Source: Armatimonadota bacterium (lineage in GTDB: Bacteria; Armatimonadota; Fimbriimonadia; Fimbriimonadales; Fimbriimonadaceae). Taken from it: a stretch of 64,000 nt of DNA. The DNA lies in the NCBI GenBank assembly GCA_016125185.1, contig WGMG01000006.1, positions 1,054,001 to 1,118,000 on the forward strand. The letters run 5' to 3'. How positions within the stretch are numbered: the first letter of the stretch is position 1; every line of letters starts with the position of its first letter. The position numbers and the translations under genes are program-made. This document shows positions 3,073-47,922 of this stretch, one piece after another. Under the pieces are notes generated by a model. It was not told where the DNA came from. It saw only the letters and a program-made list of their open reading frames with translations, and searched no databases.

Positions 3073-3075
3073 TCC

Positions 3076-8137: not shown

Positions 8138-8186
8138 AGTCTTGGATTTGTGTTAAAAACGGGTAAATTTGCTAGGCTAAATTTCA

Positions 8187-13790: not shown

Positions 13791-14885
13791 GTGAGCTCTC
13801 AAACCTGGACGGATGCAGAGGCCCGCTCTGCAAGAAATCATAACAACCTCTCTATCGTGCTTGGCTTTGTCGGCCTGTACATTGCCGGCTCGCTGACAGC
13901 CGCCCACTACCTCCATGGGCTTTTGCCTTGCGGAGCGTCTAACGGATGCGAAAAGGTGGCCGCTGATCCCTCGTCGGAGTGGATGGGCGTTCCCGTTTCG
14001 GCTTTTGGTCTGGTCGGCTACGCTATTCTGACTCTGCTGGCGGTCCTTCGGTCGATGGGAATTGCGGTAAGGCGATCGACTCAGCTTGGGTTCTTCACAT
14101 CGCTCATCGGTCTGGTCGTAAGTGTCGGTCTTACGCGCCATTCGGTGGTGGACATCGGCGCCCTCTGCACCTGGTGCCTGGCATCGGCGGCGACGATGGC
14201 CATCCTCTTCGTCTGCCACATGGCCTTGTTGCGTCGAAAGGTCGTGTCTCTTGCGCCCGGCAAGATGACAGTCCTTCTTCCGGCTTTGAGTTTGGTTCTC
14301 GTCATTCTTGGCCTTTTCGCCACCACCCGGACACTCGCCAAGCCGACGCCGGTCAGCATTGATCTGGCCGCTTTGCGGGCGATTCCTCAGGCGGACCTCG
14401 TTGCGAGCGATGATCGCGTGATGGGTTTGCCGACCGCAAGCATCACGCTGGTTGAGTTTGCCGATCTGTCGTGCGAGTCCTGCAAGGAAATGCATGCGAA
14501 GCTCGTGGAATTGGTCCAGCGGTACCCATCCGTGCGGCTGGTGTTCCATCATTTGCCGTTGACCTTCCTACCTGGCCACCAGCTTTCCGAGCAGTTGGCC
14601 GTGATTTCGGAAGGAAGCAAGTCGGACCAGGAATTTTGGACCTTCGTTTCGAACATTTACGGTTCCACGAAGGACCACCCGTTTGAAGCCAACGCGATTC
14701 ACGACAAGGCTTTGCTGGCCAAAGCAACCGCCAAGGTTCAGCGCGACATCGCGCTTGCGAAGCGGCTCAAGATCGACGAGACTCCGACGTACATCATCCT
14801 GACCAAGGACGGCTCCCGCACCCCGGCGCGCGTCAACGAGCTGTTCTCAAAACTGCAGGCGCTTTTGACTCCTGGCGGTTCGTAG
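13791..14885 (+). CDS. VKOR-DsbA fusion, periplasmic disulfide generation
   Basis: 364 aa. Residues ~15-150 form a VKOR four-helix membrane domain with the loop cysteine pair (LPCGASNGCE) and the quinone-site CXXC (CTWC) in helix 4. After a further TM helix comes a thioredoxin-fold DsbA/DsbG-like domain with CESC as the active site (ADLSCESCKEMH) and a cis-Pro-containing segment (DETPTYIIL). The fusion would oxidise substrates and pass electrons to quinone in one polypeptide. Menaquinone is a likely acceptor, since mqnC is encoded nearby at 34488. GTG at 13791 is chosen because it lies just after the previous stop; an in-frame TTG at 13755 is inside the upstream gene. Confidence 0.9.
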   Translation: MSSQTWTDAEARSARNHNNLSIVLGFVGLYIAGSLTAAHYLHGLLPCGASNGCEKVAADPSSEWMGVPVSAFGLVGYAILTLLAVLRSMGIAVRRSTQLGFFTSLIGLVVSVGLTRHSVVDIGALCTWCLASAATMAILFVCHMALLRRKVVSLAPGKMTVLLPALSLVLVILGLFATTRTLAKPTPVSIDLAALRAIPQADLVASDDRVMGLPTASITLVEFADLSCESCKEMHAKLVELVQRYPSVRLVFHHLPLTFLPGHQLSEQLAVISEGSKSDQEFWTFVSNIYGSTKDHPFEANAIHDKALLAKATAKVQRDIALAKRLKIDETPTYIILTKDGSRTPARVNELFSKLQALLTPGGS

Positions 14886-34487: not shown

Positions 34488-35573
34488 CTAGACCAGTTCG
34501 TAGCGGGTGTTTCGTCGGTGCGGGGTGTATCCGGCATCGACGATCAGCCGCTCGAACTCCTCGGCGTTCAAAATGAATTTGTTACCTGCCGCCGAGACCA
34601 CGTTCTCCTCGATCATCACGCTTCCGAAGTCGTTTGCACCGTACTTGAGGCCCATCTGGGCGATCTTTGGACCCTGGGTCAGAATCGAAAGCTGGATGTT
34701 ATCGAAGTTGTCGAGGAATATTCGCGAGACCGCCAGCGTTCGCAGATAGTCGGCCGCTGAAGCCTTCTGTGGAATCTGAAGCTTGGTGTCCTCCGGCTGG
34801 AAGTTCCAAGTGACAAAGGCTCGAAACGGCGAGCACTCGTCTTGGAGATCACGGATGCGCGAGAGGTGCTCGATTCGGTCGTCGATTGTCTCGACGTGGC
34901 CAAACATCATTGACGCCGTGCCCTTGAGCCCCATCGAAGCCGCTGTGCGCATGCACGCCAGCCAGTCCTCGGTCTTGTCCTTGTAGGGGGCGATGATGTT
35001 GCGCACGCGGTCCACAAGAATCTCGCCACCGGCGCCGGGAATGGAGTGCAAACCCGCGGCGTGGAGCCGCTTCAGTGTCTCGGGGAGCGTCAGTCGGGAG
35101 ATGTGGGCGACGTAGATGATCTCGGCCGGAGAGAGGGCGTGGAGGATCACGTTCGGGAATCGCTCCATGACCTTACTGAAGACGCGCTCGAAATAGTCGA
35201 TCTTCAGCGCTGGATTGAGGCCGCCCTGGAAGAGAATTTCAACACCGCCCTTATCGACCGTATCTTGGACCTTTTCTAGGATAGCTTCGTCCGAGTGGGT
35301 GTAGCCTTCGTCGTTGCCCGGCGGCCGGTAGAAGGCGCAGAATTTGCACCGCACCCAGCACACGTTCGTGTAATTGAGGATGCGCCCGACGATGTAGGTG
35401 ACGGTGTTCGGGTCGGTCCTCTGCTCGCGTCGGAAGTTCGCCAGCGCGGCGACTTCGACTGGATTTGGATGGTCGAAAAGAAACTTTGCTTCTTCGCTGG
35501 AGATGCGCTGGTTGGCGTAAACCTTATCTGCAATCGTGTCGATCGAGATGCCGGGAGAAGTTGTGAACGCCAT
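34488..35573 (-). CDS. mqnC: Dehypoxanthine futalosine cyclase MqnC
   Basis: 361 aa radical SAM enzyme of the futalosine menaquinone pathway; it closes the ring of dehypoxanthine futalosine. The cluster motif CxxxCxxC is C72-C76-C79 within CWVRCKFCAFYR, the CAFYR form typical of MqnC/MqnE. Downstream features (ILFQGGLNPAL, HSIPGAGGEI, GTASMMFGHVE, WNFQPEDTKL) also match. It stands alone, convergent with the Ig lipoproteins (5 bp), and is the last host gene before the island; the left inverted repeat begins 32 bp upstream of its start. Confidence 0.95.
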   Translation of the reverse strand: MAFTTSPGISIDTIADKVYANQRISSEEAKFLFDHPNPVEVAALANFRREQRTDPNTVTYIVGRILNYTNVCWVRCKFCAFYRPPGNDEGYTHSDEAILEKVQDTVDKGGVEILFQGGLNPALKIDYFERVFSKVMERFPNVILHALSPAEIIYVAHISRLTLPETLKRLHAAGLHSIPGAGGEILVDRVRNIIAPYKDKTEDWLACMRTAASMGLKGTASMMFGHVETIDDRIEHLSRIRDLQDECSPFRAFVTWNFQPEDTKLQIPQKASAADYLRTLAVSRIFLDNFDNIQLSILTQGPKIAQMGLKYGANDFGSVMIEENVVSAAGNKFILNAEEFERLIVDAGYTPHRRNTRYELV

Positions 35574-35605: not shown

Positions 35606-35648
35606 TTCAGAAATTGCCATAGGTACGCAGTCCTTTACAGCTTGAACC
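35606..35648 (+). repeat. Left terminal inverted repeat of the island
   Basis: 43 bp reading TTCAG...GCTTGAACC inward; includes the invariant core CCATAGGTACGCAGTCC. It pairs with 47880-47922 in inverted orientation with three mismatches (positions 6, 11 and 29 of the repeat). It lies 32 bp upstream of the mqnC start codon. Confidence 0.85.
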
Positions 35649-35694
35649 TGAGCTAGATTTCAACTGAATCTGAAAGTAGTTTTGGGTAACTAGA

Positions 35695-36075
35695 CTAGCT
35701 TGAATCGCCCATATTGGTCCGAATTTGCTTTAACGTCTGAATGACCTTGTCAAGTGCTGGACCAAACTGGGAGTTCTCCGGTCCAGACGGAAATCTATCC
35801 TTATTCTGAGTTAGCCATTGCTCCAGTTCCTTTATAGAGGCTGTACATGCTTTCAAGTTCTGGTTTTCCTGGCTAAGCGATTCGGCTTCATTAATGAGTT
35901 CGTTACAAACTCTCCATATGCCAGCCGCCTGGAGTCCCCATTCTCCGGGAAAATTTCCTCCAAACGCAGTTTTAGAATCTATGGTTCCGTAAAGTTCTAT
36001 CGGAATTTGGCGAGTAGTATTAGGCGCAAGTCCGACTTCCGTGACTACAACTCTTCCGAATGAACGTGACGACAT
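35695..36075 (-). CDS. Hypothetical protein, soluble
   Basis: 126 aa. Mixed N-terminal strands (GRVVVTEVGLAPN, IPIELYGTID) followed by a helical, probably coiled-coil half (ELINEAESLSQENQNLKACT, SIKELEQWLTQNKDRF). No recognised domain. Its start overlaps the end of the upstream 88-aa gene by 31 bp, so the two are coupled. Island cargo. Confidence 0.55.
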   Translation of the reverse strand: MSSRSFGRVVVTEVGLAPNTTRQIPIELYGTIDSKTAFGGNFPGEWGLQAAGIWRVCNELINEAESLSQENQNLKACTASIKELEQWLTQNKDRFPSGPENSQFGPALDKVIQTLKQIRTNMGDSS

Positions 36076-36311
36076 TCGGTCATTTTACTTTGCAATTGGG
36101 CAAGTTCATCCATCTCGCTTTTTCGCCGCTCATTTGCGGTTCTGTGGTCAAGAATTGCTCGTTCCTGTTCGAGCCGTATTTGCTCAAGTTTCCTAGCAAG
36201 CCTTATAGTTGAGCTCACAAGGTCTTCTGCTTGTTTGTGTTCAATGCTCTGGCACTTATTATCTTTGGGAGGCTGGATTGAAATTATATGGGCATCGACA
36301 GAATTGTTCAT
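36045..36311 (-). CDS. Hypothetical small coiled-coil protein
   Basis: 88 aa from the ATG at 36311 (MNNSVDAHIISIQPP). The C-terminal two thirds is a long charged helix (LARKLEQIRLEQERAILDHR, RRKSEMDELAQLQSKM), probably a coiled coil. A longer frame from 36350 would run through the 36322-36357 hairpin and is less likely. No family recognised. Confidence 0.5.
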   Translation of the reverse strand: MNNSVDAHIISIQPPKDNKCQSIEHKQAEDLVSSTIRLARKLEQIRLEQERAILDHRTANERRKSEMDELAQLQSKMTECRHVHSEEL

Positions 36312-36321
36312 GCCCCGACTT

Positions 36322-36357
36322 ATACAGGATGCAGTCGGGGCGGACTGCACCCTGTAT
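36322..36357. repeat. 15-bp inverted repeat (hairpin) upstream of a small gene
   Basis: Arms 36322-36336 and 36343-36357 match at 14 of 15 positions (core TGCAGTC / GACTGCA, loop GGGGCG). It lies 11 bp before the ATG at 36311 on the minus strand; no T-run follows. The loop sequence AGTCGGGGC recurs inverted at 36312-36320 beside the start codon, so alternative RNA folds could hide or expose the start. Confidence 0.6.
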
Positions 36358-36436
36358 TCAGTCGGTTATACCGCTTCAAGTGGGAGTTGAGAATGCTCAC
36401 GAACGGTTGAAGCTGAAATAAGCAGTTGCTCCCGGA

Positions 36437-37213
36437 TTATTTTTCGCCAATATCCCAGTAGTGGACATTGAGATTAATTACATCTTTCATGAAAATTACA
36501 AGATAGTCGGAGTCAGTAATCCAAACGAATGGAGCATACACGTCCATCCCGTTCTTTTCCTGTTCGAGAACATCAGATAAAACTGCCCGTTGGGCACAAA
36601 TAAGAAGAATTCTGTCAAGAGTTCCATCGTCGGCGAAATAGTACTTGTCTACAATTCCTCGGTATATAAACGTTTTGCTGTCTTGTTCAACAAGAACGGA
36701 TGTAAAGACAGCATCAACGTTGCTGCTCGGGAACGGTCCAGCCATTTTGTCGAAATCAAGGATATTGGATTCGAAAAGGTAATACCAAGGATGGTCAAAA
36801 CGCAACAACCTCGATTGCAGGTCACACCTACCGGCCCGGACAAAAACGTGCAAAATAACCGCAAACAAGTATGAGCATATGTACAAGACCGAGAAATACG
36901 CTGCGATTGCTCCAGCATTTGACGAGACATTTTTTAAAGCTAGGCTAAACTTGTCATTTCCGCTCGCGGGCCCGAAAAGTAGGGCCATAGCGTATTCTAT
37001 GTTTACTCTTTTTTGCGGATAGAAATGGTCGATTCCAGTAATAAATGCCAAGTGAAGTACGACTGAAATCACTGCGCTGAATGCAGCTTCTTCGGCAATA
37101 GATTTGGCTTTGAATGGATGAGCCTGGAACGTTCCTCGCAAATATGAATTACGTGCAATAACGCCTGGCAACAGGAGAAGGAGTATTAGAAGCGCAGGCG
37201 CAGCGAAGTTCAT
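36437..37213 (-). CDS. Membrane protein resembling DUF6338
   Basis: 258 aa. Three hydrophobic segments: 4-20 (AAPALLILLLLLPGVIA), about 45-62 and about 98-120 (AAYFSVLYICSYLFAVILHV). The C-terminal ~130 residues are soluble (VDAVFTSVLVEQDSKTFIYRG, DSDYLVIFMKDVINLNVHYW), with a beta-rich pattern like DUF6338 proteins. Function unknown. Such proteins occur in defence neighbourhoods, but I cannot confirm membership without a profile search. Confidence 0.6.
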   Translation of the reverse strand: MNFAAPALLILLLLLPGVIARNSYLRGTFQAHPFKAKSIAEEAAFSAVISVVLHLAFITGIDHFYPQKRVNIEYAMALLFGPASGNDKFSLALKNVSSNAGAIAAYFSVLYICSYLFAVILHVFVRAGRCDLQSRLLRFDHPWYYLFESNILDFDKMAGPFPSSNVDAVFTSVLVEQDSKTFIYRGIVDKYYFADDGTLDRILLICAQRAVLSDVLEQEKNGMDVYAPFVWITDSDYLVIFMKDVINLNVHYWDIGEK

Positions 37214-37230
37214 CGACCTCGCTTATATTA

Positions 37231-37419
37231 TCACTCTGGGTTAGAATTTGGATTAGTAATACGACCGGACCGGTCGGTTGCGCTCCTGATGACATAAGTT
37301 TTGTTGCCGTATCGAAACTCTCGCAGTCCCTCGGGCTTAAAAGCAGCGTCCACCATGTCACGTCGGGCTCGGGAATCCCGCAGAATCTCTTTCACCAAAT
37401 TGGATTTGTGAGCTTCCAT
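37231..37419 (-). CDS. Small hypothetical protein
   Basis: 62 aa, MEAHKSNLVKEILRDSRARR... with a KTYVIRSATD strand and a polar tail. An AGAGAG ribosome-site-like sequence precedes the ATG. It lies 17 bp upstream of the DUF6338-like gene and may be co-transcribed. No family recognised. Confidence 0.5.
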   Translation of the reverse strand: MEAHKSNLVKEILRDSRARRDMVDAAFKPEGLREFRYGNKTYVIRSATDRSGRITNPNSNPE

Positions 37420-37441
37420 GTCTCTCTATTATGACGCCTGA

Positions 37442-37488
37442 AGGGCTTTCACTACTGCGTGGAGCGCAAATATTGAAGTAAAAGCCCT
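37442..37488. terminator. Inverted repeat between nuclease and small gene
   Basis: 11 of 12 matching arms (37442-37453 AGGGCTTTCACT and 37477-37488) with a 23-nt loop, followed on the plus strand by GCTTTTAG. It sits just past the stop of the nuclease gene (37500) on the minus strand. The loop is long, so a terminator role is only possible. Confidence 0.3.
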
Positions 37489-37499
37489 GCTTTTAGAGT

Positions 37500-38501
37500 T
37501 CATGCAGCTTCAAGCGGAAGTTGAGCCTGCGCACCAAGGACGTCTTTTCCAGCTTTGCAGATAGGCAGAAATGAACAGAGACGGCAGTTGTGTGGCACTG
37601 GTTTGGGCTGGAAGTCCTCGAAGTCGGCGAAGAAGACGTTGCTTCCATGCTCATCCTGCATCTTATGCACCATGTTCATTTCCTGACCATGATGGTTGAC
37701 AATTTCAGTTCTAATCTGGTCCAGCTCATTTGAATTGACTTCATGCGCAACCCACGCTGGACGAGAATGTAAGAAGTACGGAACGGTACGAACTGACTCA
37801 AGGGCAATGTTCGAGTTAAGTGCGTAGAGTGAGTAGGCCGTCAACTGCTTCCTGCAGCTTTGATATGAGCTTGCTGAGAATTTGCCAGTTTTCCAGTCGA
37901 TGAAGAAGAACTCGCCCTCGTGCCTCAACGCGAGGTCGTAAGGCGTGTAGATGCGTAGGCCATTGCACTCGCTAAGTCCAAGTTTTGCCGACGCATCAAC
38001 ATACGGAACTGCCGAGTTCGAGTTGTTGACATCAAGCCATTCCTTTCTGTCCGTCGTTTGCAGGAACTGCAGGGCCGGCGATTGGTAGAAGGCATCCAGT
38101 CCGTCGGACACGGCTTTTCGACCCGCATTTTCAAGTTCTTCACTCGGCCCAGAGTTGAAGTGGTGCATCAGGACGGACCCCGCACCCGGATTCTTTCCAT
38201 CTTTTACCTTGCGTGCAAGGGCCAAGCTGTCGCTGAGCGCAGTGTCGAATCTCTGAATCGCATATTCTTTTGGGTTTGGTCCGAGGACACCATTCTTCTT
38301 ATATTGGTGCAGCGTAACTGCAATGAAAGAATGGATGATGTCTCCGACGAGGAGGGGAATCGTACGCGCATTTTTCAAGAAAATGTACGTATTCTGCCTT
38401 TCTTCGCCCCATGGGTAGTAGTTGTAAGCAAACGCCCGGGGGCACCGCTTCAGCAGAGCTTGTCGCGAACAACTCCAACTTACGTTCCTTGCTGTGCCCA
38501 T
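37500..38501 (-). CDS. PD-(D/E)XK nuclease of the RecB/Cas4 type with Fe-S cysteines
   Basis: 333 aa. All RecB-family motifs are visible: motif I His (GDIIHSF, H57), motif II Asp (YTPYDLAL, D189), motif III D-x-K (IDWKTGK, D202/K204) and the QxxxY motif (KQLTAYSLY, Q219/Y223). Cysteines C20 (RCPRAFAY), C306, C309 and C315 (CRLCSFLPIC) match the Cas4/AddB four-Cys [4Fe-4S] arrangement. So it should be a metal-dependent DNA nuclease, active-site intact. Its ATG lies inside the end of the DDE-protein gene (22-bp overlap), implying the two are made together. No cas genes or CRISPR array are nearby, so it is not an adaptation Cas4. Confidence 0.85.
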   Translation of the reverse strand: MGTARNVSWSCSRQALLKRCPRAFAYNYYPWGEERQNTYIFLKNARTIPLLVGDIIHSFIAVTLHQYKKNGVLGPNPKEYAIQRFDTALSDSLALARKVKDGKNPGAGSVLMHHFNSGPSEELENAGRKAVSDGLDAFYQSPALQFLQTTDRKEWLDVNNSNSAVPYVDASAKLGLSECNGLRIYTPYDLALRHEGEFFFIDWKTGKFSASSYQSCRKQLTAYSLYALNSNIALESVRTVPYFLHSRPAWVAHEVNSNELDQIRTEIVNHHGQEMNMVHKMQDEHGSNVFFADFEDFQPKPVPHNCRLCSFLPICKAGKDVLGAQAQLPLEAA

Positions 38502-39532
38502 GTGAAGCCCTCCTGCAGTTCAGTCCCAAAGTCAATCCATTCCCGATTTGCTTTTCTCGTGGACGCATTTGGTGTGGGTCGACCACTGGACCGCCAATAT
38601 GGAACTGCCTTAACGCTCATTACGGCCGTGGCAAGTTCAGGAAGCATTGCCAATGGCGTTGAGAATCTTCTTCCTTCAAACCGGAAGCAATACTCGTCCA
38701 AATAGCCCTGGATATGACGCTTCGAAAATGAACCTTGATGACATCCCCTGAGAATCCTTTTCAGCAAGGAGAAGACGCGGTGAATTCTAGGCAAATATCC
38801 TTCTGCGACTTTGCTACCGTCGCGCATTCTGTTTGACTGGTTTTCCTTGTAGGCAACCATGGGAGCATGGAAGAACTGCGGAGAACGATATGGACTGCCG
38901 TCTGAAAAGATAATTGAGCCAGGTGCAATTTGGTCTGACTGAAATGTGCGGACCTCTTTAGCGATGGTCTTGTTGCTTGTGACGAGTCTGAGTCTCGCGC
39001 GGCCGCTTCCAGATTTTCGCTGTTCAACCGCACCCGCAACGATGGTTTTAGTTGGGTCGGATAAACCAGCGAGGTTGGCACCTTCCTTTTTGGAGCCAAA
39101 TACCATCAAGTCGGCTTCGACCGCCCCCGTCAATGGTGGGCGGCCATCCATTTCTTTGCTGATTGCTCGACGGATTTCCCGGAGCCAGCGCAAAGCGGTG
39201 TTATAGCTTCCAAAACCCATCACCCGTTTCAATTCCAGCGCACTAATGCTCTGCTTGGAACTGATAACGTAGAACAACGCTGTGAGCCACTCACGGAGCG
39301 GCTTTCGCGAATTGTGCAGAACGGTTCCGGACCTAAGGGAGGTTGCCTTGTCGCAAGAAGCACAAATCCATTCTTCGCGCTTAGTGCGAAGATAAGCCAT
39401 CTGGAATCCGCAATGAGGACATACAAAGCCGTTTGGCCAACGAACGCTGAACAAGTAGTCGCGACAAGCCTCTTCCGTTCCGAAAGTGTCGTGGAATTCC
39501 AGCGTCGTTCTGGGGAAATTAGCAAAATTCAT
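38480..39532 (-). CDS. IS1595/ISXO2-like DDE protein with altered third catalytic position
   Basis: 350 aa. N-terminal zinc ribbon (CPHC 38-41, CASC 57-60), the IS1595 helical linker (SLRSGTVLHNSRKPLREWL), then an RNase-H-like core: D141 in VEAD, D211 in FSDGSPY. The third site normally reads E or N seven residues before Lys (E-x6-K); here it is H251-x6-K258 in IHRVFSLLKRI. The ATG at 39532 follows GGAGGGG; the 350 residues slightly exceed usual IS1595 transposases. It overlaps the upstream 134-aa gene by 14 bp and the nuclease by 22 bp, and has no IS-type inverted repeats tightly around it. It may serve the whole island rather than being a lone IS. Confidence 0.85.
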   Translation of the reverse strand: MNFANFPRTTLEFHDTFGTEEACRDYLFSVRWPNGFVCPHCGFQMAYLRTKREEWICASCDKATSLRSGTVLHNSRKPLREWLTALFYVISSKQSISALELKRVMGFGSYNTALRWLREIRRAISKEMDGRPPLTGAVEADLMVFGSKKEGANLAGLSDPTKTIVAGAVEQRKSGSGRARLRLVTSNKTIAKEVRTFQSDQIAPGSIIFSDGSPYRSPQFFHAPMVAYKENQSNRMRDGSKVAEGYLPRIHRVFSLLKRILRGCHQGSFSKRHIQGYLDEYCFRFEGRRFSTPLAMLPELATAVMSVKAVPYWRSSGRPTPNASTRKANREWIDFGTELQEGFTWAQQGT

Positions 39533-39923
39533 ATTCCCCTCCGCAAGCATTGCATCTTGCAATCGGGCGATACATTTGCAACCATTCCCAAAGCTTTCTG
39601 TTGTCGGAAAGGTCCATATTCAGCCTTACAATAACGTAACTGGCAAGTTGGTCGGTAAACGAAACGTTCTCGACACAAGGAATCGTTGAGAGGGCTACTA
39701 CAACGTGCATCATCGTTTCCTCGTCATCAAAGTTACTTTTCAGGAGCCATAACGTTGCCTCGGCGTAGCTATCGGTTCTTTCCCAACTCAGGCTGTGGAA
39801 CATGTATTCGACTTCATTCGGCCCTGAAATCCTGAATCCAAAGCGTCGAGATGCAGCTTCCAAGAAAATCGCTCGAGCAGTCAATTCCATCGCAATTTCC
39901 GTGTTGTAGCCAATCTGGTTCAT
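39519..39923 (-). CDS. Hypothetical protein, first of the DDE-nuclease trio
   Basis: 134 aa. Soluble, mixed alpha/beta (SRRFGFRISGPNEVEYMFHS, EATLWLLKSNFDDEETMMHV) with a C-terminal cysteine cluster (CNACGGEYEFC) that could bind zinc. No domain recognised. Its last codons contain the ribosome site of the DDE protein, a close coupling that suggests a shared function, perhaps target or partner binding. That role is inference from gene order only. Confidence 0.6.
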   Translation of the reverse strand: MNQIGYNTEIAMELTARAIFLEAASRRFGFRISGPNEVEYMFHSLSWERTDSYAEATLWLLKSNFDDEETMMHVVVALSTIPCVENVSFTDQLASYVIVRLNMDLSDNRKLWEWLQMYRPIARCNACGGEYEFC

Positions 39924-40101
39924 GCGTTACCTCCGAGGAAAGTTCTCGCGCCTTGGGTAGGCAAATTAACGAAACGGTTGTGAGATTTACTTCTAAATGA
40001 CATTTAATCACCATCTAAGGCTCCATTTGAGCCATAGATTTATTAAACGCCGCTCGCTTCGGTAAATGGACCGGGGCCTTTACCAGTTTGGGCCAGTTAA
40101 A

Positions 40102-40395
40102 TTACTTGTTTGAGCTCAGGAAATGGCGATTTCCATCATCGAGACCCGCCGGAAAGAGTTCTTCGGCAGGCTTTTGCAGGATGCTAATGAGAACGGCAGC
40201 TGTCTTCAATCTGGGTCGAGTCCACCCCAATTCCAGACCCTTAATGGTCGAAACCGAAACTGGATTGAAGCGAACTGGGTCTTGAACGACCAATTGCTCG
40301 GCCAGCTTAGTGAGTTGGTCACGAGTGAGTAATTTCTCTTCTCGAACTGCCCGAAGGTTATTCGGATATTTCCCTCGGACTTTCTCGTTCGGCAT
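40102..40395 (-). CDS. Xre-type helix-turn-helix regulator
   Basis: 97 aa. HTH_3 fold: NLRAVREEKLLTRDQLTKLA, recognition region VSVSTIKGLELGWTRPRLKT, and AAVLISILQKPAEELFP. Longer loop than usual between helices 2 and 3 (VVQDPVRFNP). The ATG at 40395 is used; a TTG is one codon upstream. It lies 178 bp before the trio on the same strand and may regulate it. The intervening 39924-40101 holds a 5-bp hairpin (40019-40033) but no gene. Confidence 0.75.
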   Translation of the reverse strand: MPNEKVRGKYPNNLRAVREEKLLTRDQLTKLAEQLVVQDPVRFNPVSVSTIKGLELGWTRPRLKTAAVLISILQKPAEELFPAGLDDGNRHFLSSNK

Positions 40396-40433
40396 CAAGC
40401 ATATTATTGGCTTGAGCGAATCGAATTTTCAAT

Positions 40434-41159
40434 CTACTTCAGGACGACATTGTTTTCATATCGCCATAGTTTCCCGCTGGCGTCGCGTCGATATGTCAGT
40501 AGCGTAATGGCGTCTCCTGGATGCTTACCGAATGTGGCGTCGGCCAATGGGTCACCCGAATTAAAGCTGTTGAGGATGCTTCCGTTGGCCGCAATAAGGA
40601 AGTCTCCTGCTCGAATTCCGCTGTTCCATGCTGGACCTCCCTTGCTAATTGAATTGACGTACCAGCCCTGGCCAGGAGACAAGCCGCACTCCTGAGCGTT
40701 TGACGCAAGTATCGGTTCAAGACTCACACCAATCCCACTTGGCTTGGCATTCTCGGCACTCCGCCCTGATGTGACTTGATTCGCAGTCGCTCCCAGCTCA
40801 ATCAAATGCTCGACGAAGCCATTTCCATCACGCAAAGCCAGAGATTTTGGCTTAGCCGAGTAGTTGTAGTCCACGATGGTCAAAGAAATTTTGGCTCCAG
40901 AGGGTCCAGTCACCACAAGGTATGGATAGTCGACTGCGTACTTCAACACGTTGCCGTTGGAATCCGTATACGAACCATCTGACTTAAAGTTATAAATCGT
41001 TCCAAGTTCTTGGCTCTTCCACGAGCCCACTAGGTTGGCCTCCATGGCGACGCCTTGCGAAGCGTGTCCAACCGATGAGCAGGATGCCATCACCAAAGCG
41101 GTTAACGCTAATGCAACACACATATCTATTTTTGAGAAGTAACTTGCCATTTGTGCCAT
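40434..41159 (-). CDS. Lipoprotein with a C-terminal PDZ domain
   Basis: 241 aa. Signal with lipobox MASC near residue 27, a lipocalin-like/DUF-type strand region (LVGSWKSQELGTIYNFKSDG, about 40-120), and a PDZ domain (about 145-235: GIGVSLEPILASN, VNSISKGGPAWNSGIRAGDFLI). No protease domain, so it is probably a binding or sensing lipoprotein. ATG at 41159; 41150 is an alternative. It is divergent from the Xre regulator at 41236, with operator-like repeats between. Confidence 0.75.
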   Translation of the reverse strand: MAQMASYFSKIDMCVALALTALVMASCSSVGHASQGVAMEANLVGSWKSQELGTIYNFKSDGSYTDSNGNVLKYAVDYPYLVVTGPSGAKISLTIVDYNYSAKPKSLALRDGNGFVEHLIELGATANQVTSGRSAENAKPSGIGVSLEPILASNAQECGLSPGQGWYVNSISKGGPAWNSGIRAGDFLIAANGSILNSFNSGDPLADATFGKHPGDAITLLTYRRDASGKLWRYENNVVLK

Positions 41160-41199
41160 ATGTCTATCTTTGACATAAGTATATGTCTATCTTGGGCAT
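41160..41199. promoter_or_regulatory. Tandem operator-like sites between divergent genes
   Basis: Two copies of the site ATGTC-TATCTTT-GACAT: 41160-41176 (perfect 5-bp dyad) and 41183-41199 (ATGTC-TATCTTG-GGCAT), 23 bp apart. A third, weaker match lies inside the PDZ gene (about 41123-41138). The arrangement suggests binding by the adjacent Xre protein and control of both divergent genes. Confidence 0.65.
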
Positions 41200-41235
41200 G
41201 TCGATGATTGAAAGTCAAGCTATGGGCCATAGGCC

Positions 41236-41529
41236 GTGGTCAAGTCGATTTATTCGAATGAATACAAACTGATGGTTCGTCTCCTTCGAGAGGCGAGGGA
41301 AGGTCATGGCATAACGCAAGAGCAAGTTGCACAGAAACTAGACATAACGGCTTCGATGCTCTCGAAGTGGGAACTTGGACAACGGCGGATTGACCTGCGT
41401 GAATTGTCCCTATATCTTCAAGCATGCGGTGTTGACATCGTTGAGTTCGTCAGTTCCTGGCAACAAGCTATCGGTGACGGCGATGGAACCATAAGTCTCA
41501 AGAAGGGCAGACCTGGCGCACGCAATTAG
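41236..41529 (+). CDS. Xre-family repressor
   Basis: 97 aa. HTH_3: MVRLLREAREGHGITQEQVAQ, KLDITASMLSKWELGQRRID, LRELSLYLQACGVDIVEF. GTG start at 41236. It is followed 21 bp later by the convergent 3' end of the membrane gene. Likely binds the repeats at 41160-41199. Confidence 0.85.
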   Translation: MVKSIYSNEYKLMVRLLREAREGHGITQEQVAQKLDITASMLSKWELGQRRIDLRELSLYLQACGVDIVEFVSSWQQAIGDGDGTISLKKGRPGARN

Positions 41530-41550
41530 TCCGTCGCCATGAAATGATAG

Positions 41551-42381
41551 TTAGCTTTGCCCAATTGAATTTGGCTGGGAACTCGCTGAACTTTCGAACT
41601 GAGGCACCGCACTATTTAAACGGTTGGCCTCAAAAAGAGCTTTGCGCTTCTCACGTTCTTCTTCCATTCGCTCCTGTTCAAACAGGCGATTCTCAAGAAC
41701 AGACATATCAAGCTTCTTCACATCAACTTCTTTTCTGTCAAAGTACACTTTGAGCTCGTTGAGGTATGTAAGGCTAGGAGGACGGAAAGTTTTCAACTTT
41801 CTTTTCGTAACGAATACATCGGAAGCAAGTGCTTCCTCAGCATCAACCAGAGCACGAAGGTCACTTATCAATGCAGATGCATGGCCATATGCATCCCCAG
41901 CTTGACCATATTCAAACGACCTCGCGTCAAGGGTGAATCCTAAGCTTCCATCCATTACAAAACTTACATAGGAACTAAGGTGCTTGTCTGGAAGGTTGCA
42001 CCAGTCGGGAATCAACCCATATTTCTCGGCTTCAAGAAGTGCCTCATCAGACAGTCGTGCGAAGTTATCGACATGACGCTCATAATTTGCTTGAGACCTT
42101 AAAGCTACTTCTTCAAGATTCGACTTTTTGTTGAGGTCAGAATAACGGGCATCACCCGCCGCAGACCTTGCTCCAACCACCGCGGCGATTAACCTTCGAA
42201 GTGTATCGGCCTTTTCCAAGTGGCGGTCCCGAGTGCGAACAGCAATGGCATGTCGACGGTCGATACCTTCCTTATATTTGGCAACCAGGATATTCCCGAG
42301 AATTGTTCCTCCTCCAATCGTGAGGAGGACAGGAATAAGAATTGTCCACCAATTAACTGCTTGTTGCGTCGCGTCAGCCAC
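41551..42381 (-). CDS. Hypothetical membrane-anchored protein
   Basis: 276 aa. One TM helix at 11-32 (WWTILIPVLLTIGGGTILGNIL) then a long helical cytoplasmic region (YKEGIDRRHAIAVRTRDRHLE, LKTFRPPSLTYLNELKVYF) ending in a charged helix and Ser/Gln-rich tail. No domain recognised. Single-TM proteins of this kind occur in phage-defence islands, but no function can be assigned. Confidence 0.6.
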   Translation of the reverse strand: MADATQQAVNWWTILIPVLLTIGGGTILGNILVAKYKEGIDRRHAIAVRTRDRHLEKADTLRRLIAAVVGARSAAGDARYSDLNKKSNLEEVALRSQANYERHVDNFARLSDEALLEAEKYGLIPDWCNLPDKHLSSYVSFVMDGSLGFTLDARSFEYGQAGDAYGHASALISDLRALVDAEEALASDVFVTKRKLKTFRPPSLTYLNELKVYFDRKEVDVKKLDMSVLENRLFEQERMEEEREKRKALFEANRLNSAVPQFESSASSQPNSIGQS

Positions 42382-42501
42382 TTCCTAATATTTAACTACG
42401 GAATGAGGGCATCGGGTCGTTACACACAGCAAAACTGAATTCGTTGACGGCAACAAAGACATAACTCTCTGGCCAACATTACGCGCCTCCGTGTAAGCTG
42501 T

Positions 42502-43737
42502 GTGCGGATGCGGATAACTAAGCAGCCGAGTGGTGGTTCAAGCAGAACGGGAGGCCGAGGCGAATTCGAATTAGCGGAAGACGTTCCCGGTGGGCCTCGA
42601 GTAACGGACCTTTTTGAACATGACCTCATTCTGCAATATGGTTCTGTTGAACTGCCAACCGGAATATTTCTGACCAAACAAGGTGGTAAACGACGCCTCC
42701 GACTTCGAAACAATCGTGAGACTTTCCACATTGGGAGGCAAGCCGCGGCAATCCTGATGTTGCCAACACCAATTAGAGATGAGGCAAGACTTGAGGGCGG
42801 TCAACCAGTGCTCCGTTCGGACGGTTACTTGCTCCACCATATAGAATTGGAAGAAGTTGAGGTCCTTAGACCAGTCACTTTAGAGGATGGCGTCGTGAAA
42901 TCTCCGGGCCTATTTAGAGCCAGAGCCAATACCATCATTTATGGCAATCAGGCGTTCCAAGCTGAGACATTGGCGATAGGACAACGTGTAAAAGAAATAG
43001 AACTCTTATGGCATGCCCGCAATAGCTTCCCAAGCGACCTCTCTAATCTTCTTGCGATGCACGAGTCTGCAGTTAAGTCTGGCTCGGCCGTGCCAAAAGC
43101 GCTGACCCAAATCGTTGAGTCCATTCAGAAAACGTTCGCAGCATTCTCTGCCGACATGGGAGTTGTCTACAGCGAACGCGAAGACGTCGTTCCAGCTATG
43201 CTCCGAGCCCTCCGGGAAGAAGTGGATGAGAAGGACAAGCCTCTATCCCTCGAGCAAATCCCACCGGACCAGTTGGACATTCGCCGGCGTGAAATCGAAA
43301 AGTGGCAAACCTGGGCAAGGCGACGCGGACCTCAGAGTACAAAGTTTAAACGGGAGGTTAGGGAGGCATACGATTGGACATGCCTCGTTTGCGGAAATAG
43401 ATTTCCTCCAACTGACATAAGCCGCAATCCTGGAGTAGATGCTGCTCACATTTTGCCGTGGTCAGATTTTGACCTTGACCATGTAAGCAATGGTCTATGT
43501 TTGTGCAAACTTCATCACTGGGCGTTCGATGAGGGAATTCTTAGGATTGTTCACAGAGAAGGACAATACTTAGTCGAACTGGCTCCAGGTGCTGAAGAGC
43601 GCATTCTGCAACCCCAGTTTTCGCTAGAATCGTTGCGAGCGGTGACGGGAGTTATTCCGTCCTACAGACTTCCCAATGCTATTGCGGAAAGACCGAATCC
43701 ACTATTGCTAAGCAGGCTATACGAGGAGCTGAACTAA
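42502..43737 (+). CDS. HNH endonuclease, likely restriction nuclease
   Basis: 411 aa. N-terminal ~250 residues have mixed strands (LILQYGSVELPTGIFLTK) and helices, possibly a recognition domain. The C-terminal HNH domain (about 290-360) contains CLVCGNRF with zinc-type CxxC, DAAHILPWSDF (HNH His) and NGLCLCKLHHWAFDEG. It converges with the cytosine methyltransferase, stops overlapping by 4 bp. That pairing and the Vsr nearby suggest the nuclease of a type II restriction-modification system; recognition sequence unknown. GTG start at 42502. Confidence 0.82.
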   Translation: MRMRITKQPSGGSSRTGGRGEFELAEDVPGGPRVTDLFEHDLILQYGSVELPTGIFLTKQGGKRRLRLRNNRETFHIGRQAAAILMLPTPIRDEARLEGGQPVLRSDGYLLHHIELEEVEVLRPVTLEDGVVKSPGLFRARANTIIYGNQAFQAETLAIGQRVKEIELLWHARNSFPSDLSNLLAMHESAVKSGSAVPKALTQIVESIQKTFAAFSADMGVVYSEREDVVPAMLRALREEVDEKDKPLSLEQIPPDQLDIRRREIEKWQTWARRRGPQSTKFKREVREAYDWTCLVCGNRFPPTDISRNPGVDAAHILPWSDFDLDHVSNGLCLCKLHHWAFDEGILRIVHREGQYLVELAPGAEERILQPQFSLESLRAVTGVIPSYRLPNAIAERPNPLLLSRLYEELN

Positions 43738-44729
43738 GCTCGAGCGAGCAGAAGTTCTTTTTCTTGGTCAACATCGACAACCTCATGTTCGAAAGGCATC
43801 TGTGTTCCAAGGTAGAGCATCATACGCTCGGCTAGCCACTCGGCCACTGGAACTGTCACAGCGTTTCCAAGTGCGTGGTACCGCAACGAATCAAGTTTGT
43901 CTATGTCGGCCGGTTGCTCGTCGGGTAAAGTCCAATCCGTGGGAAAACCCTGAATCCCCTCACATTCCTTTGGCGTAAGACGCCTTACACGGCCGTCAGG
44001 ATATGTCACATATGTTCGACTCCAGTCTGTGCCAGTGTGCCTGGCCGAACAAGCATATAAACAATAAGCTAGTCCTTGGACGATTGGTCCTTTGACAGAA
44101 TCTCCAAAGCTGCTCTTAAAGGGGGAAATAGACTCCTTCCCATTCGGTCGGCGCGGCGCATCATTCCCGACGCTGCATTCGGGCTCAAAAAGTATCTTTG
44201 CGGAACCTCCCCGGTCTCGATGACATCCAACAATAAAGACTCTTTGGCGCGACTGGGCGACTCCGAAGTGTCGAGAATTAAGCACTCGCCATCCCACGCT
44301 ATACCCGAGGTCGGCCAACGTGCGAACAACGATTCCGAAGTCCCGTCCGTCGTGGGAAGAGAGAAGTCCCGGAACGTTCTCGATAAGAAGAACTCGGGGA
44401 AGTTGCTCTCCAACGAGTCTCGCAAACTCGTAGAAGAGTCCTGAACGACTTCCTCGCAAGCCGTCACGTTTACCCATTCGGGCGAGTGAGACGTCTTGGC
44501 AGGGAAATCCTCCAACCCAGATGTCAGCGGCAGGGACATCTGCGGCTGTAACTTTTTTGATGTCTGTTTTCCTTTTGACATTGCTCCAGTTCTTCTCCAG
44601 AATAGTATTGCAAAACGTATCTATTTCGCACTGAAATGCGATTTCGTATCCGGCTCGTTGGAAGCCGAGGTCGAAGCCCCCAATTCCAGAAAAAAAGGAA
44701 GCCACTTTAGGCTTGACTACGGTGCTCAT
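43734..44729 (-). CDS. DNA (cytosine-5-)-methyltransferase
   Basis: 331 aa. Motif I FFSGIGGFDLGFQRAGY (about 12-28), motif IV with the catalytic Cys FPCQDVS (C77), motif VI IENVPG (E117), motif VIII QSRQRVFIVG, and motif X region YHALGNAVTVPVAEWLAERM. All needed motifs are present. It starts inside an ATGA overlap with the RHH gene. It probably protects DNA against the HNH enzyme, or is an orphan; 5mC creates the T:G mismatches that Vsr repairs. Confidence 0.95.
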   Translation of the reverse strand: MSTVVKPKVASFFSGIGGFDLGFQRAGYEIAFQCEIDTFCNTILEKNWSNVKRKTDIKKVTAADVPAADIWVGGFPCQDVSLARMGKRDGLRGSRSGLFYEFARLVGEQLPRVLLIENVPGLLSSHDGRDFGIVVRTLADLGYSVGWRVLNSRHFGVAQSRQRVFIVGCHRDRGGSAKILFEPECSVGNDAPRRPNGKESISPFKSSFGDSVKGPIVQGLAYCLYACSARHTGTDWSRTYVTYPDGRVRRLTPKECEGIQGFPTDWTLPDEQPADIDKLDSLRYHALGNAVTVPVAEWLAERMMLYLGTQMPFEHEVVDVDQEKELLLARA

Positions 44730-44962
44730 ACTTCTGAGGCCCCGCGCTTTCTGGTCTTTCCAGAGATTTCATTCACGTCGCCGCCACAAGTTTCGACCAG
44801 CATCTCGCATGCTTTTCGAACCACATATCCGACAGATACATTGTTTCGTGAAGCAAGCTCAGTTAGGGCTTCATGCTGGGAACGAGGAAAGCTGACACTC
44901 TGACGAACCGTGGGTTCGTCCTCTTTCAGATGTTTTGCCGCAGCCCTCAATTTGTTCACCAC
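44726..44962 (-). CDS. Ribbon-helix-helix/CopG-like regulator in the RM block
   Basis: 78 aa. The segment RQSVSFPRSQHEALTELASR followed by NNVSVGYVVRKACEMLVE is the ribbon strand and two helices of an RHH DNA-binding fold. Located between vsr and the methyltransferase with ATGA overlap to the latter, so it may be a controller (C) protein or a DNA-binding partner. That role is inference. Confidence 0.72.
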   Translation of the reverse strand: MVNKLRAAAKHLKEDEPTVRQSVSFPRSQHEALTELASRNNVSVGYVVRKACEMLVETCGGDVNEISGKTRKRGASEV

Positions 44963-44981
44963 AGTGCACCAAGATGCACCA

Positions 44982-45464
44982 CTATACCGTGAATACGGTC
45001 GAAGAGGGCGAAAGGTCGCAAAAAACCCTTCGCAATTTATTCACAGCTTCACCTATATCGTGTTTTAGCTCACATTCCCAGAAGGTCATGACCGTCCAGC
45101 CTGACGCCTCCAGAAGTCTGCACTGCTCTTCAAATCGTGTGCGATTCCTTTGGACTTTGCGTAACCAATATTCAGTATTGGTTTTTGGTGGGCGAATCCT
45201 GCCGCGTGCCTCGCATCGTGGACAACCATGCCAAAAACATCCATGGATAAACACTGCGAGTCTGACTGAGGAAAATGCAATATCCGGTTTCCCAGGCAAT
45301 CTTGCTACATTCTTTCTATAGCCCTTCAAGCCACTTTGCCAAATAGTACGACGGAACTCGATTTCGGGTTTTGTGCCCGTCGAGCGATTGGACCGCATCG
45401 ACTTGCGAACGGGCTCGGTGGTTTCTAAAGAAGTTCGGAGCTTCTCGAAGTTAACCGACTTCAT
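44982..45464 (-). CDS. vsr: Very short patch repair endonuclease Vsr
   Basis: 160 aa. Family features: KSMRSNRSTGTKPEIEFRRT, GKPDIAFSSVRLAVFIHGCF, then WHGCP with the zinc-ligand His/Cys and GWTVMTFWECEL. Vsr nicks 5' to the T in T:G mismatches arising from deaminated 5-methylcytosine, countering mutation caused by the linked methyltransferase. The ATG at 45464 gives the usual length; the frame extends to a TTG at 45521. It leads the minus-strand vsr-RHH-dcm run. Confidence 0.93.
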   Translation of the reverse strand: MKSVNFEKLRTSLETTEPVRKSMRSNRSTGTKPEIEFRRTIWQSGLKGYRKNVARLPGKPDIAFSSVRLAVFIHGCFWHGCPRCEARGRIRPPKTNTEYWLRKVQRNRTRFEEQCRLLEASGWTVMTFWECELKHDIGEAVNKLRRVFCDLSPSSTVFTV

Positions 45465-45675
45465 TAGTACATTGTGAACCGGCCGAGCAGAAATCTTGGA
45501 GCGAAACTTTGCTACTCGCAAGAAATCGAGGACATCTTTCAGATTTAGTTATGAACCGACGAAATTGCCGGCAACTTCTAAAGCTCCTGTCTTCGTCAAG
45601 TGAAAATCTGAGTCATAAGCTCGCCGTCCGAAGTCTTGGAGGACCAGACAAGCTGGCCCTCCGTGTGGAGCTTTC

Positions 45676-45816
45676 TTACTTGCCTTTTTTAGGAGCAGGC
45701 TTGATGGTCTCCACGACCGTGGTGCTCGGTCGGCGTTCGGCCTCGCGCACCGGGATGAACTGGCCGGTTCTTGCGTCGCGGCCGATTTGATGTGGAGAGG
45801 GTTTGGGGGATTTCAT
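45676..45816 (-). CDS. 46-residue basic protein of an 'RDAxTGxFxxVxEA' type
   Basis: Too short for standard calling. 46 aa, MKSPKPSPHQIGRDARTG... then QFIPVREAERRPSTTVVETI. GAGG four bases before the ATG is a good ribosome site. The motif RDARTGQF...RPSTTVVE recurs in small proteins of mobile regions in many bacteria; I know of no experimental function. It is divergent from the RHH gene at 45928, sharing its promoter region, and could belong to the same regulatory unit. Confidence 0.68.
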   Translation of the reverse strand: MKSPKPSPHQIGRDARTGQFIPVREAERRPSTTVVETIKPAPKKGK

Positions 45817-45865
45817 TTTTCCTCGTCCCGATTTTCACCGGGTTCATCATAATATACGCAAGAAT

Positions 45866-45917
45866 TAGCTAAAAAGTAGCTACTATTTGGACAAAATGTG
45901 GAAAATTGTCGTAGAAT
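45866..45917 (+). promoter_or_regulatory. Promoter and RHH operator candidate
   Basis: Two TAGCTA boxes (45866-45871 and 45877-45882) separated by 5 bp form an inverted repeat, followed by a promoter with -35 TGGACA (45888-45893) and -10 TAGAAT (45912-45917), 18-bp spacer. The site lies between the divergent 46-aa gene and the RHH-GNAT operon. Confidence 0.5.
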
Positions 45918-45927
45918 GAATATGTAA

Positions 45928-46149
45928 ATGAGTGAATCTGCTGCCAAACGAACGATGACTTTGAACCTGAGCGAGTCCGAAATGAAGGACCTCGAGGCTC
46001 TCTGCCTTCGTTATGACATGAACAAAACGGCCCTCATGAAAAAGGCTTTCCGAATGTTCTTGATGATTGACCAGCGGCTACAAAAGGGCGAAAAGCTATT
46101 CGCTGAAGATGAAAAAGAAAACAAGAAAGCGGAGCTAGTTGTGTTGTGA
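45928..46149 (+). CDS. Ribbon-helix-helix protein, possible antitoxin
   Basis: 73 aa. TMTLNLSESEMKDLEALCLR then YDMNKTALMKKAFRMFLMID is an RHH fold; a charged tail (KGEKLFAEDEKENKKAEL) could neutralise a partner. It overlaps the GNAT gene by 4 bp (GTGA), a common antitoxin-toxin layout. Antitoxin role is inferred from fold plus layout. Confidence 0.68.
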   Translation: MSESAAKRTMTLNLSESEMKDLEALCLRYDMNKTALMKKAFRMFLMIDQRLQKGEKLFAEDEKENKKAELVVL

Positions 46150-46754
46150 AATTGAAATTACGCGATGGCGTCACATTGGAACCGGTGGAAGCCGAACTGC
46201 TTTCCCCGGTGAGTTCGGAAGACTTGGTCGAAGCGGAATCCAAATGGGTGCCTCGACTCCGTGACGTCTACACCGAGATGGTGGCATTGGGCCAAATAGA
46301 ACGAGTCTATGTCTGGCAATCTCGGTGGAAGAGCAAGGATGCACTCTTAAATGACCCCAACTACTTAATTATCGGCATAAGGGCCTCAAATCAGGTTCAA
46401 GGCTTGGCGAAGTTAATAGTGAAGGGCCACGCATCCAAGGTCGACGGCAATCTACCCATTGTATATATTGATTTCGTGGAATCTGCCCCATGGAACGTCA
46501 AGCGATATATGGACGCCATTGGCCAAAACCAGCGATTCAAGGATACTGGACTCGAACTTTTGAAAGCGGCGATTCGGCACAGCGTTGACATTGGATGCCA
46601 GGGCCGAGTGGGACTGCATTCCCTCGTCGAATCTGAAGGATTCTACAGGTGTGCGGGAATGACTGAACATGGCAAAGATGGAAACAAGAATGGACTGGTT
46701 TATTTCGAATTCGCTACGGCAGAAGCAATGACCCTCATAGGAGAAACACAATGA
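46146..46754 (+). CDS. GNAT-family acetyltransferase, possible toxin
   Basis: 202 aa. Central strand/helix NYLIIGIRASNQVQGLAKLI, then GLELLKAAIRHSVDIG and GLHSLVESEGFYRCAGMTEH, which fits the C-terminal GNAT half where Tyr acts as acid. The acetyl-CoA binding (Q/R)xxGx(G/A) motif is not obvious, so activity is uncertain. It is longer than TacT/AtaT toxins (about 160-180 aa). Starts at GTG in overlap with the RHH gene and overlaps the next gene by 4 bp. Confidence 0.68.
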   Translation: MKLKLRDGVTLEPVEAELLSPVSSEDLVEAESKWVPRLRDVYTEMVALGQIERVYVWQSRWKSKDALLNDPNYLIIGIRASNQVQGLAKLIVKGHASKVDGNLPIVYIDFVESAPWNVKRYMDAIGQNQRFKDTGLELLKAAIRHSVDIGCQGRVGLHSLVESEGFYRCAGMTEHGKDGNKNGLVYFEFATAEAMTLIGETQ

Positions 46755-47071
46755 CAGAACGTGAAAAATCTCTGCGTGACAAAATTGACAACTGCGCGGA
46801 AGAAAGTGGAAGCCTATTGGCTGCTCCAAGTAATGAAACGATTGACATCAGAGAATGGATAAGTCAGGTTAACAAAGAATATCCAGTTGAAAATACTGGC
46901 GAAGAAAAGACAATCGAGTTCAAGCGCCGCTTTCTCGCCAAGTCTTTTGAGCAAAGCGCACAGGCAATGCAGCTCGCGGCACGAAACTTTGATGTCTTCC
47001 CGGACGAAACCATTGAAGCTCTATACGAAGAAGCCATGGACTTACAAAAGAGGGCGGATGAGAATCCGTAA
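46751..47071 (+). CDS. Hypothetical protein in the RHH-GNAT-ImmA operon
   Basis: 106 aa, acidic and helical (SLRDKIDNCAEESGSLLAA, FKRRFLAKSFEQSAQAMQLA, DETIEALYEEAMDLQKRAD). No HTH is evident, although genes just before ImmA/IrrE peptidases often encode their HTH substrate. ATGA overlap with GNAT. Function unknown; it may be the cleavage target or an adaptor for the downstream peptidase. Confidence 0.6.
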   Translation: MTEREKSLRDKIDNCAEESGSLLAAPSNETIDIREWISQVNKEYPVENTGEEKTIEFKRRFLAKSFEQSAQAMQLAARNFDVFPDETIEALYEEAMDLQKRADENP

Positions 47072-47073
47072 CT

Positions 47074-47844
47074 TTGTTGAGTCGCTCAATTGACCCGGAA
47101 GTGGCCGCTTATGCGTTCCTTGATGAACTGGAAGTCGAAGATTACAGGCAAATCGACCCACAACTCTTTGCCGAATGCATCGGCTTAAAGGTCCGAGCGG
47201 TGAAATTGCCAGGGCTCGATGGATGTTTAATGAGGCTCGGCAAGCACGGAACCATCCTTCGTAATAGCCTGGTTGATTATCCTCCTCGGGTCCGATTCAC
47301 CATCGCGCACGAGCTAGGACATTGGTTTCTGCATCCCAACCACAGCCAGGACTATCTCTTCGAAGAAAATGCCCTTGCGAGATACAAAAGGAGCCAAGTG
47401 GAAGATGAGGCAAATACCTTTGCCGGGGCACTTCTCATGCCGAGAAAGTGGTTCGGGAAAGGTCTCGTGAACATTCCACCGCTCGTTCAGCCAATCATCG
47501 AACTCGCAGACAAATTCGATGTTTCGATAATGGCCGCAACGAAACGATACATGGATTTGACGCTGATGCCCTCAGTGGCAATCTCCTCAGACGGAGAACA
47601 TGTGCGGTGGACATGGCCGTCCAATGGAGCCAAGGTTTTCATAAGGGCCGGAATGGAAATCGACCCGGACAGCACAGCCTATGATTGTCAAGACACGCCA
47701 GAACAAGCAACCCGAATCGGTCCAGTAAAGAGCACCGGTGATATGTGGTTTCCCAATCCGTTCAGCGATGACGAAGTGCTCATTGAGGAGCAGTCATGTC
47801 GGCTCAACCAAGACATCGTTCTTACACTAGTTCGAATCATATAA
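47074..47844 (+). CDS. ImmA/IrrE-family zinc metallopeptidase
   Basis: 256 aa. HELGHWFLH at 79-87 is the HExxH site of this family, and the downstream EDEANTFAGALLMPRKWF contains the third ligand Glu. ImmA of ICEBs1 cleaves the repressor ImmR to activate excision; IrrE cleaves DdrO after DNA damage. The C-terminal ~90 residues are an extra beta domain (WTWPSNGAKVFIRAGMEI). TTG start at 47074 (or 47077), 2 bp after the preceding stop. It is the last gene in the island, 35 bp from the right repeat. Confidence 0.9.
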   Translation: MLSRSIDPEVAAYAFLDELEVEDYRQIDPQLFAECIGLKVRAVKLPGLDGCLMRLGKHGTILRNSLVDYPPRVRFTIAHELGHWFLHPNHSQDYLFEENALARYKRSQVEDEANTFAGALLMPRKWFGKGLVNIPPLVQPIIELADKFDVSIMAATKRYMDLTLMPSVAISSDGEHVRWTWPSNGAKVFIRAGMEIDPDSTAYDCQDTPEQATRIGPVKSTGDMWFPNPFSDDEVLIEEQSCRLNQDIVLTLVRII

Positions 47845-47879
47845 AGAAGTAGTTTCAATCTTTTGTGAAAGCGGTTCCT

Positions 47880-47922
47880 GGTTCAAGCTGTAAGGGACTG
47901 CGTACCTATGGAAATTGCTGAA
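47880..47922 (-). repeat. Right terminal inverted repeat of the island
   Basis: 43 bp; its reverse complement matches 35606-35648 at 40 positions, including a 17-bp run. It lies 14 bp from the stop codon of the flanking lipase-like gene. Confidence 0.85.

Follow-up and report, generated by a model that had tools for sequence, protein, structure and literature searches.

An IS1595-family transposase gene and an overlapping Cas4/ACE1-family nuclease gene in the core of a cargo-carrying transposon from Fimbriimonadia

The window analyzed here, a stretch of 64,000 nucleotides from an Armatimonadota bacterium of the class Fimbriimonadia, contains a DDE transposase gene that overlaps the gene of a PD-(D/E)XK nuclease, which raises the question of whether the two proteins act together in moving the surrounding island. 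A sequence-only reading had described a trio of overlapping genes and proposed that it encodes a two-part transposase. ORF coordinates confirmed the trio, with overlaps of 14 bp between the small gene and the transposase gene and 22 bp between the transposase and nuclease genes. The same reading had overlooked an XRE gene at 40102-40398, as well as the inverted repeats and the target duplication that bound the island. The core region is as follows, the loci counted being the five described below:

37500-38501, minus strand: PD-(D/E)XK nuclease, Cas4/ACE1 family, core gene, 333 aa (PF12705, 4.7e-11; AF2 model and PDB match; 5/5 loci)
38480-39532, minus strand: IS1595-family DDE transposase, core gene, 350 aa (zinc ribbon and DDE domain; D141, D211 and the H in HRVFSLLK; alignment with ordinary IS1595 transposases; tree)
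39519-39923, minus strand: small protein without assigned function, 134 aa, accessory (2/5 loci; no family; homologue in G046 only)
40102-40398, minus strand: XRE-type regulator, core gene (weak HTH_3; orthologue upstream of the DDE gene at 5/5 loci, 41-43% identity)

The transposase is counted from an internal ATG, the longest frame having a TTG start at 39562. Its assignment as an IS1595-like DDE protein was borne out by PF12760 (6.5e-15), PF12762 (1.6e-13) and NF033547 (9.7e-37), all above cutoffs. Besides PF12705, the nuclease gave weak matches to Cas4 and, in PADLOC, to Argonaute-associated Cas4-like nucleases, and its gene is present in a single copy in the host genome (4.52 Mb, 13 contigs). 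As had been noted from the letters, domain searches assigned no family to the small protein; the best folds for its AF2 model (pLDDT 81) were weak secretion-chaperone/YbjN-like matches, so we make no claim about its function.

When 113 genomes of the class were searched with a transposase profile, five loci in four genomes scored above 500 bits (the window, G046, G032 and two loci of one genome, G027a and G027b) and ordinary IS1595 copies reached at most 310 bits, a gap that is partly by construction because the profile was built from those five; with a profile of four transposases, G032 scored 223 bits, within the range of ordinary copies. At all five loci of this subclade (5/5) the transposase gene is followed directly by the nuclease gene and preceded by an orthologous XRE gene, whereas neither gene was found beside the ordinary IS1595 copies of the class (loci with about 1.5 kb of flank). 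Since the nuclease and XRE genes are always present in the subclade, the element is not a typical IS1595 member. The transposase and nuclease genes overlap by 22 bp in the window, 23 bp in G046, 8 bp at both G027 loci and at least 10 bp in G032. A search of 291 genomes of the phylum for the XRE family itself gave seven matches, of which five lie at the loci described here. The small gene occurs only in the window and G046 (2/5). Of the proposed trio, the DDE-nuclease pair is thus constant, but the third constant partner is the XRE regulator, and the conserved unit is XRE regulator, IS1595 transposase and ACE1/Cas4-family nuclease. Within the subclade the conserved gene order holds and homologues do not occur mainly alone; beyond it, ordinary IS1595 transposases and most wider relatives of the nuclease occur without each other.

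In the transposase tree the five proteins group together with 90% bootstrap support, or 100/97 when G032, which has a long branch, is left out; the ISCsp2-like IS1595 transposases are the sister group of this clade. In the nuclease tree the window protein pairs with that of G046 and G027a pairs with G027b (100/99 for both pairs), and the clade that includes G032 is weaker (67/57); both trees give the same two pairs. The constant overlapping position and the matching trees suggest that the nuclease takes part in the transposition reaction.

The borders were scanned for as inverted repeats flanking the operon with a direct duplication outside them, and the window element was found to extend over 35618-47910 (12,293 bp), bounded as follows:

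35610-35617, unstranded: target-site duplication, left copy GAAATTGC, an identical 8-mer immediately outside both inverted repeats
35618-35648, plus strand: terminal inverted repeat (TIR), left, CATAGGTACGCAGTCCTTTACAGCTTGAACC, 30/31 identical to the right end and inward-facing
47880-47910, minus strand: TIR, right, CATAGGTACGCAGTCCCTTACAGCTTGAACC on the minus strand, pairing with the left end
47911-47918, unstranded: target-site duplication, right copy GAAATTGC, the same 8-mer as the left copy

The 31-bp TIR consensus, CATAGGTACGCAGTCC(C/T)TTACAGCTTGAACC, has exactly two copies in the 4.5-Mb genome, with a chance expectation of none in the window. The scan gave a single solution in the flanks scanned at each of the window, G027a and G027b, and control scans of 60 shuffles and 40 unrelated real pairs gave 0 matches. 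In G027a the 31-bp TIR is CTCACCTAACTGGTCGTGTCAGGTAGGAACC and the 9-bp duplication, which lies at the downstream gene's start codon, is ATGACGCAA; G027b has a 31-bp TIR, T(A/C)TGGGTATCTGGTC(G/C)TTTCCAGTTAGAACC, and a 9-bp duplication, ATAGCGTAT, which can also be read as 7 or 11 bp because the target is nearly palindromic. These two elements measure 7,265 and 5,436 bp. At G046, a weaker inverted-repeat pair (18/22) with the 9-bp duplication ATTCCTAAT (ATTAGGAAT in operon orientation) bounds 13,597 bp; these borders are graded likely because the left flank is repetitive. No TIR was found at G032, where the upstream contig is only 1.1 kb. A simple search for inverted repeats that covered 5.2 kb around the operon gave no TIRs because the element is larger; they emerged in wider scans. 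The overlapping pair is present at five loci, at least three of them within elements having both TIRs and target duplications, so that the proposed check for conservation of the pair in TIR-bounded elements had a positive outcome, and it is close to certain that the island is a transposon.

With respect to the insertion site, the island is flanked by mqnC (34488-35573) on one side and a hydrolase/TPR gene pair on the other. In G021 and G022 the homologue of the TPR gene adjoins that of mqnC and the island is absent, a comparison made at gene level; the alpha/beta hydrolase gene of the window (47937-49211) is likewise absent from that arrangement and does not lie beside mqnC in the relatives examined. 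A base-precise empty site was not found, and a search of a relative with the joined flanks of G027a gave no contiguous match. On either side of the G027b insertion (L061, about 8800-9100 and 14550-14850) lie intergenic repeats that are nearly identical and share CCTTTTTTCAAAAAGG as a hairpin-like core.

These observations bear on the idea of domestication, in which transposase and nuclease would together have become a system for defence or DNA processing that no longer moves. Its low copy number, the His-to-Tyr change at G032 and the lack of a TIR found there (the contig being short on one side), and surroundings rich in defence genes would fit such a system. We regard it as highly improbable, because intact TIRs and target duplications are present at three independent loci that differ in both cargo and insertion site, and because the neighbourhood is empty in relatives when compared gene by gene.

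The ends of independent elements resemble each other, with 21/31 positions shared between the window and G027b and 19/31 between G027b and G027a, and neither value was reached in 20,000 column permutations. Ordinary IS1595 loci, in the same scan, showed 8-bp duplications and lengths of 1.0-2.3 kb, and their ends carry a TATC-GGTT core like that of G027b. This shared core and the presence of other IS1595 copies in the same genomes are what might be expected if another IS1595 transposase of the genome moved the island in trans and the resident pair were not the mover. Such an origin is scarcely credible, since the ordinary copy tested from G027 (L096) has different ends, matched at 16/27 positions or fewer anywhere in the five loci, whereas elements whose transposase belongs to this DDE subclade have ends that are alike. 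L096 (G027:C24) lies within a stretch whose translation looks RHS/YD-repeat-like, and no clean direct duplication is seen at its outermost ends.

The transposase residues D141 and D211 are kept at 5/5 loci, and the third catalytic position is His at 4/5 loci and Tyr in G032. The same His occurs in the alignment in ISCsp2 and other ordinary IS1595 relatives and, judged from this alignment, is native to the group. We considered that the DDE protein had been inactivated by a change of E to H, and rejected this because ISCsp2-like elements carry the same H; ISCsp2 is present at several sites in some plasmid records. In the G027a and G027b elements D or G stands in place of the K of HRVFSLLK; given these changes together with the H-to-Y change in G032, some copies may be impaired.

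An alignment of seven relatives of the nuclease showed D189, D202-W-K204, Q219, Y223, C20, C306, C309 and C315 to be invariant, in agreement with the Cas4/RecB-like nuclease with an intact PD-(D/E)XK core that had been read from the sequence. These residues are as expected for an Fe-S PD-(D/E)XK enzyme, the Fe-S cluster being a prediction. In Foldseek, the AF2 model (pLDDT 86.6) had ACE1 (9iab, 1.1e-8) as its top PDB match, followed by Dna2, AddB, AdnAB and RecB, and TnsA was absent from the top 50 PDB matches. The predicted fold of the nuclease is Cas4/ACE1-like, not that of TnsA.

The cargo of the window element comprises the following genes:

36437-37213, minus strand: membrane protein, weak DUF6338 (PF19865, 0.028, below cutoff)
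40434-41159, minus strand: lipoprotein-like and PDZ protein (PF17820, 4.6e-7; distant match in the G046 element)
41236-41529, plus strand: second XRE regulator (PF01381, 1e-15; 44% identity to the gene at the same position of the G046 element)
41551-42381, minus strand: membrane/coiled-coil protein (matches two genes of the G046 element, 6e-15 and 4e-10)
42502-43737, plus strand: HNH restriction endonuclease (PF13391, 1.3e-11; NF045808, 3.2e-14, below its cutoff)
43734-44729, minus strand: C5-cytosine DNA methyltransferase (PF00145, 5.4e-64; TIGR00675, 1.6e-68)
44982-45521, minus strand: Vsr mismatch endonuclease (PF03852, 1.9e-22)
47074-47844, plus strand: M78 peptidase, CapP-like (PF06114, 3.8e-16; PADLOC capP, 1.3e-45)

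Within this cargo, the HNH, C5-methyltransferase and Vsr genes make up a restriction-modification set. The window element has one recognised transposase gene. No CBASS genes were identified near the CapP-like peptidase gene, which lies at the right end of the element and is preceded by a small upstream gene. The G046 element has a DUF6338 gene at the same end as the window's, with no BLAST match between the two. Its cargo includes an N6/N4 methyltransferase gene overlapping the gene of a 759-aa protein, which reads like a GHKL-type ATPase although it has no Pfam match; this pair is followed by the order XRE, unknown gene, DDE and nuclease, and a PIN-domain gene and copies of the window's membrane protein are also present. 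A trypsin-like protease is carried by G027a, whereas the cargo of G027b consists solely of genes with no assigned identity. Cargo therefore varies among elements, and the XRE-DDE-nuclease core is constant. We also observed that the G046 XRE gene overlaps the large GHKL-like gene, with the DNA methyltransferase gene ahead of the latter, and that in L146 (G019:C12, 7559-9527) a gene related to the core XRE gene immediately precedes the gene of an HATPase_c (GHKL) protein, with genes resembling those of site-specific recombinases on both sides.

The main rival is that the nuclease is itself cargo co-translated with the transposase, an ACE1/Cas4-like defence or competitor-clearing enzyme travelling with the element. 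Most of its wider relatives have no DDE partner, its closest solved structure and its PADLOC matches are Argonaute-associated, and the remaining cargo is defence-like. Against this, no other non-regulatory gene stays beside the DDE gene at all five loci, where the nuclease gene always follows directly and overlaps it; other cargo changes, and the transposase and nuclease trees share two pairs. We consider this explanation rather unlikely, and hold that the three genes probably form the core that mobilizes an IS1595-family transposon by means of a two-protein machine. Points against such a machine are that most members of the broader nuclease superfamily have no DDE gene beside them, that the fold of the nuclease is Cas4/ACE1-like and not that of TnsA, that the catalytic region of the transposase is altered in some copies, that ordinary IS1595 elements move without a nuclease, and that transposition is here read from anatomy.

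In this two-protein machine, the zinc-ribbon DDE protein would bind the 31-bp ends and cut and join the transferred strand at a stagger of 8-9 bp, in the manner of other IS1595 elements. The same DNA would be the substrate of the nuclease encoded by the overlapping gene, whose most likely task would be to cut or trim, at the ends, either the non-transferred strand or a flap, so that the long element could leave its donor cleanly, a role like that of TnsA in Tn7; the XRE protein would repress the operon. We favour a TnsA-like cut of the non-transferred strand, and flap trimming or removal of donor ends would serve nearly as well. The proposal of a two-part transposase for the island is thus supported in its anatomy (TIRs, target duplication and constant pairing), the role of the nuclease remaining an interpretation.

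Tn7 has a DDE enzyme and a PD-(D/E)XK nuclease encoded side by side, and is large, of low copy number and with defence-like cargo. The likeness to TnsA/TnsB that had been suggested extends to all of these features: adjacent DDE and PD-(D/E)XK genes, a large element, defence-like cargo and low copy number. In contrast to Tn7, the DDE protein here has IS1595 domains only and is not TnsB, the nuclease is Cas4/ACE1-like by fold (PF12705) and not TnsA, the DDE gene precedes the nuclease gene, and the target duplication is 8-9 bp, not 5; a Tn7-like division of labour would be an analogy of roles. TnsC, TnsD and TnsE were not recognised among the cargo proteins scanned, small ORFs being covered in part. 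ACE1, the Argonaute-associated Cas4-family enzyme (PDB 9iab, 9iac), is the best match of the nuclease in sequence and fold, but here the partner is a transposase and no Argonaute gene was recognised at these loci. With CRISPR-adaptation Cas4 and the nuclease domains of AddB, RecB and Dna2 the nuclease shares the PD-(D/E)XK core, the Cys cluster and Foldseek matches; unlike them, it has no recognised cas partner and is not helicase-fused. Among the neighbour proteins scanned, cas searches gave only weak matches of the nuclease to Cas4 and one weak Cas1 match in a coiled-coil ORF.

Merlin relatives have 8-9 bp target duplications. The transposase resembles ISCsp2-like IS1595 elements and transporter IS such as ISNha5 in its zinc ribbon and DDE_Tnp_IS1595 domain, with D-D-H as in ISCsp2, and the elements resemble IS1595-family IS in having TIRs with a similar core and duplications of 8 bp (window) or 9 bp (G027a, G027b, G046). 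They differ in the nuclease gene overlapping the transposase gene, in the C-terminal extension of the transposase, in the upstream XRE gene and in length, 5.4-13.6 kb against about 1-2.3 kb. The IS1595 family has an 8-bp target duplication and usually a single transposase as sole mobility gene (PMC8101967). Passenger genes of IS1595 elements, including regulators, are already known (PMC11891212, citing Siguier 2009). The pairing with a partner nuclease is new as far as the literature found, a search conducted largely outside subscription journals having yielded no such IS1595 element.

We give about an even chance to the wider reading of a Tn7-independent heteromeric DDE and PD-(D/E)XK transposase, in which an IS1595 element recruited a Cas4/ACE1-family nuclease and an IS of about 1 kb became a cargo transposon spreading restriction-modification and other defence genes. 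If the nuclease does take part in transposition, the division of labour of Tn7 would have at least two evolutionary origins, each with its own parts, and nucleases of the Cas4 family would have a role beyond CRISPR adaptation and Argonaute systems. Whether addition of a nuclease turns a small IS into a cargo-carrying cut-and-paste element becomes a testable question, and the defence-gene island now has clear element borders.

The unit is known solely from this class, most phyla being unsampled, because it was not found in plasmids or IMG/VR (both by nuclease search), in phages, or in 349 Pseudomonadota genomes, a set that held no positive control; DDE matches in IMG/VR were ordinary IS1595 without the nuclease. 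In L064 (G028, 1-12000), a relative of the nuclease without a DDE partner lies near a large adenine methyltransferase-like gene (PglX-like by eye). Two contigs of G019 (C30 and C40; L067 and L068) start, within their first 250 bases, inside similar nuclease fragments, which suggests that a repeated element broke the assembly.
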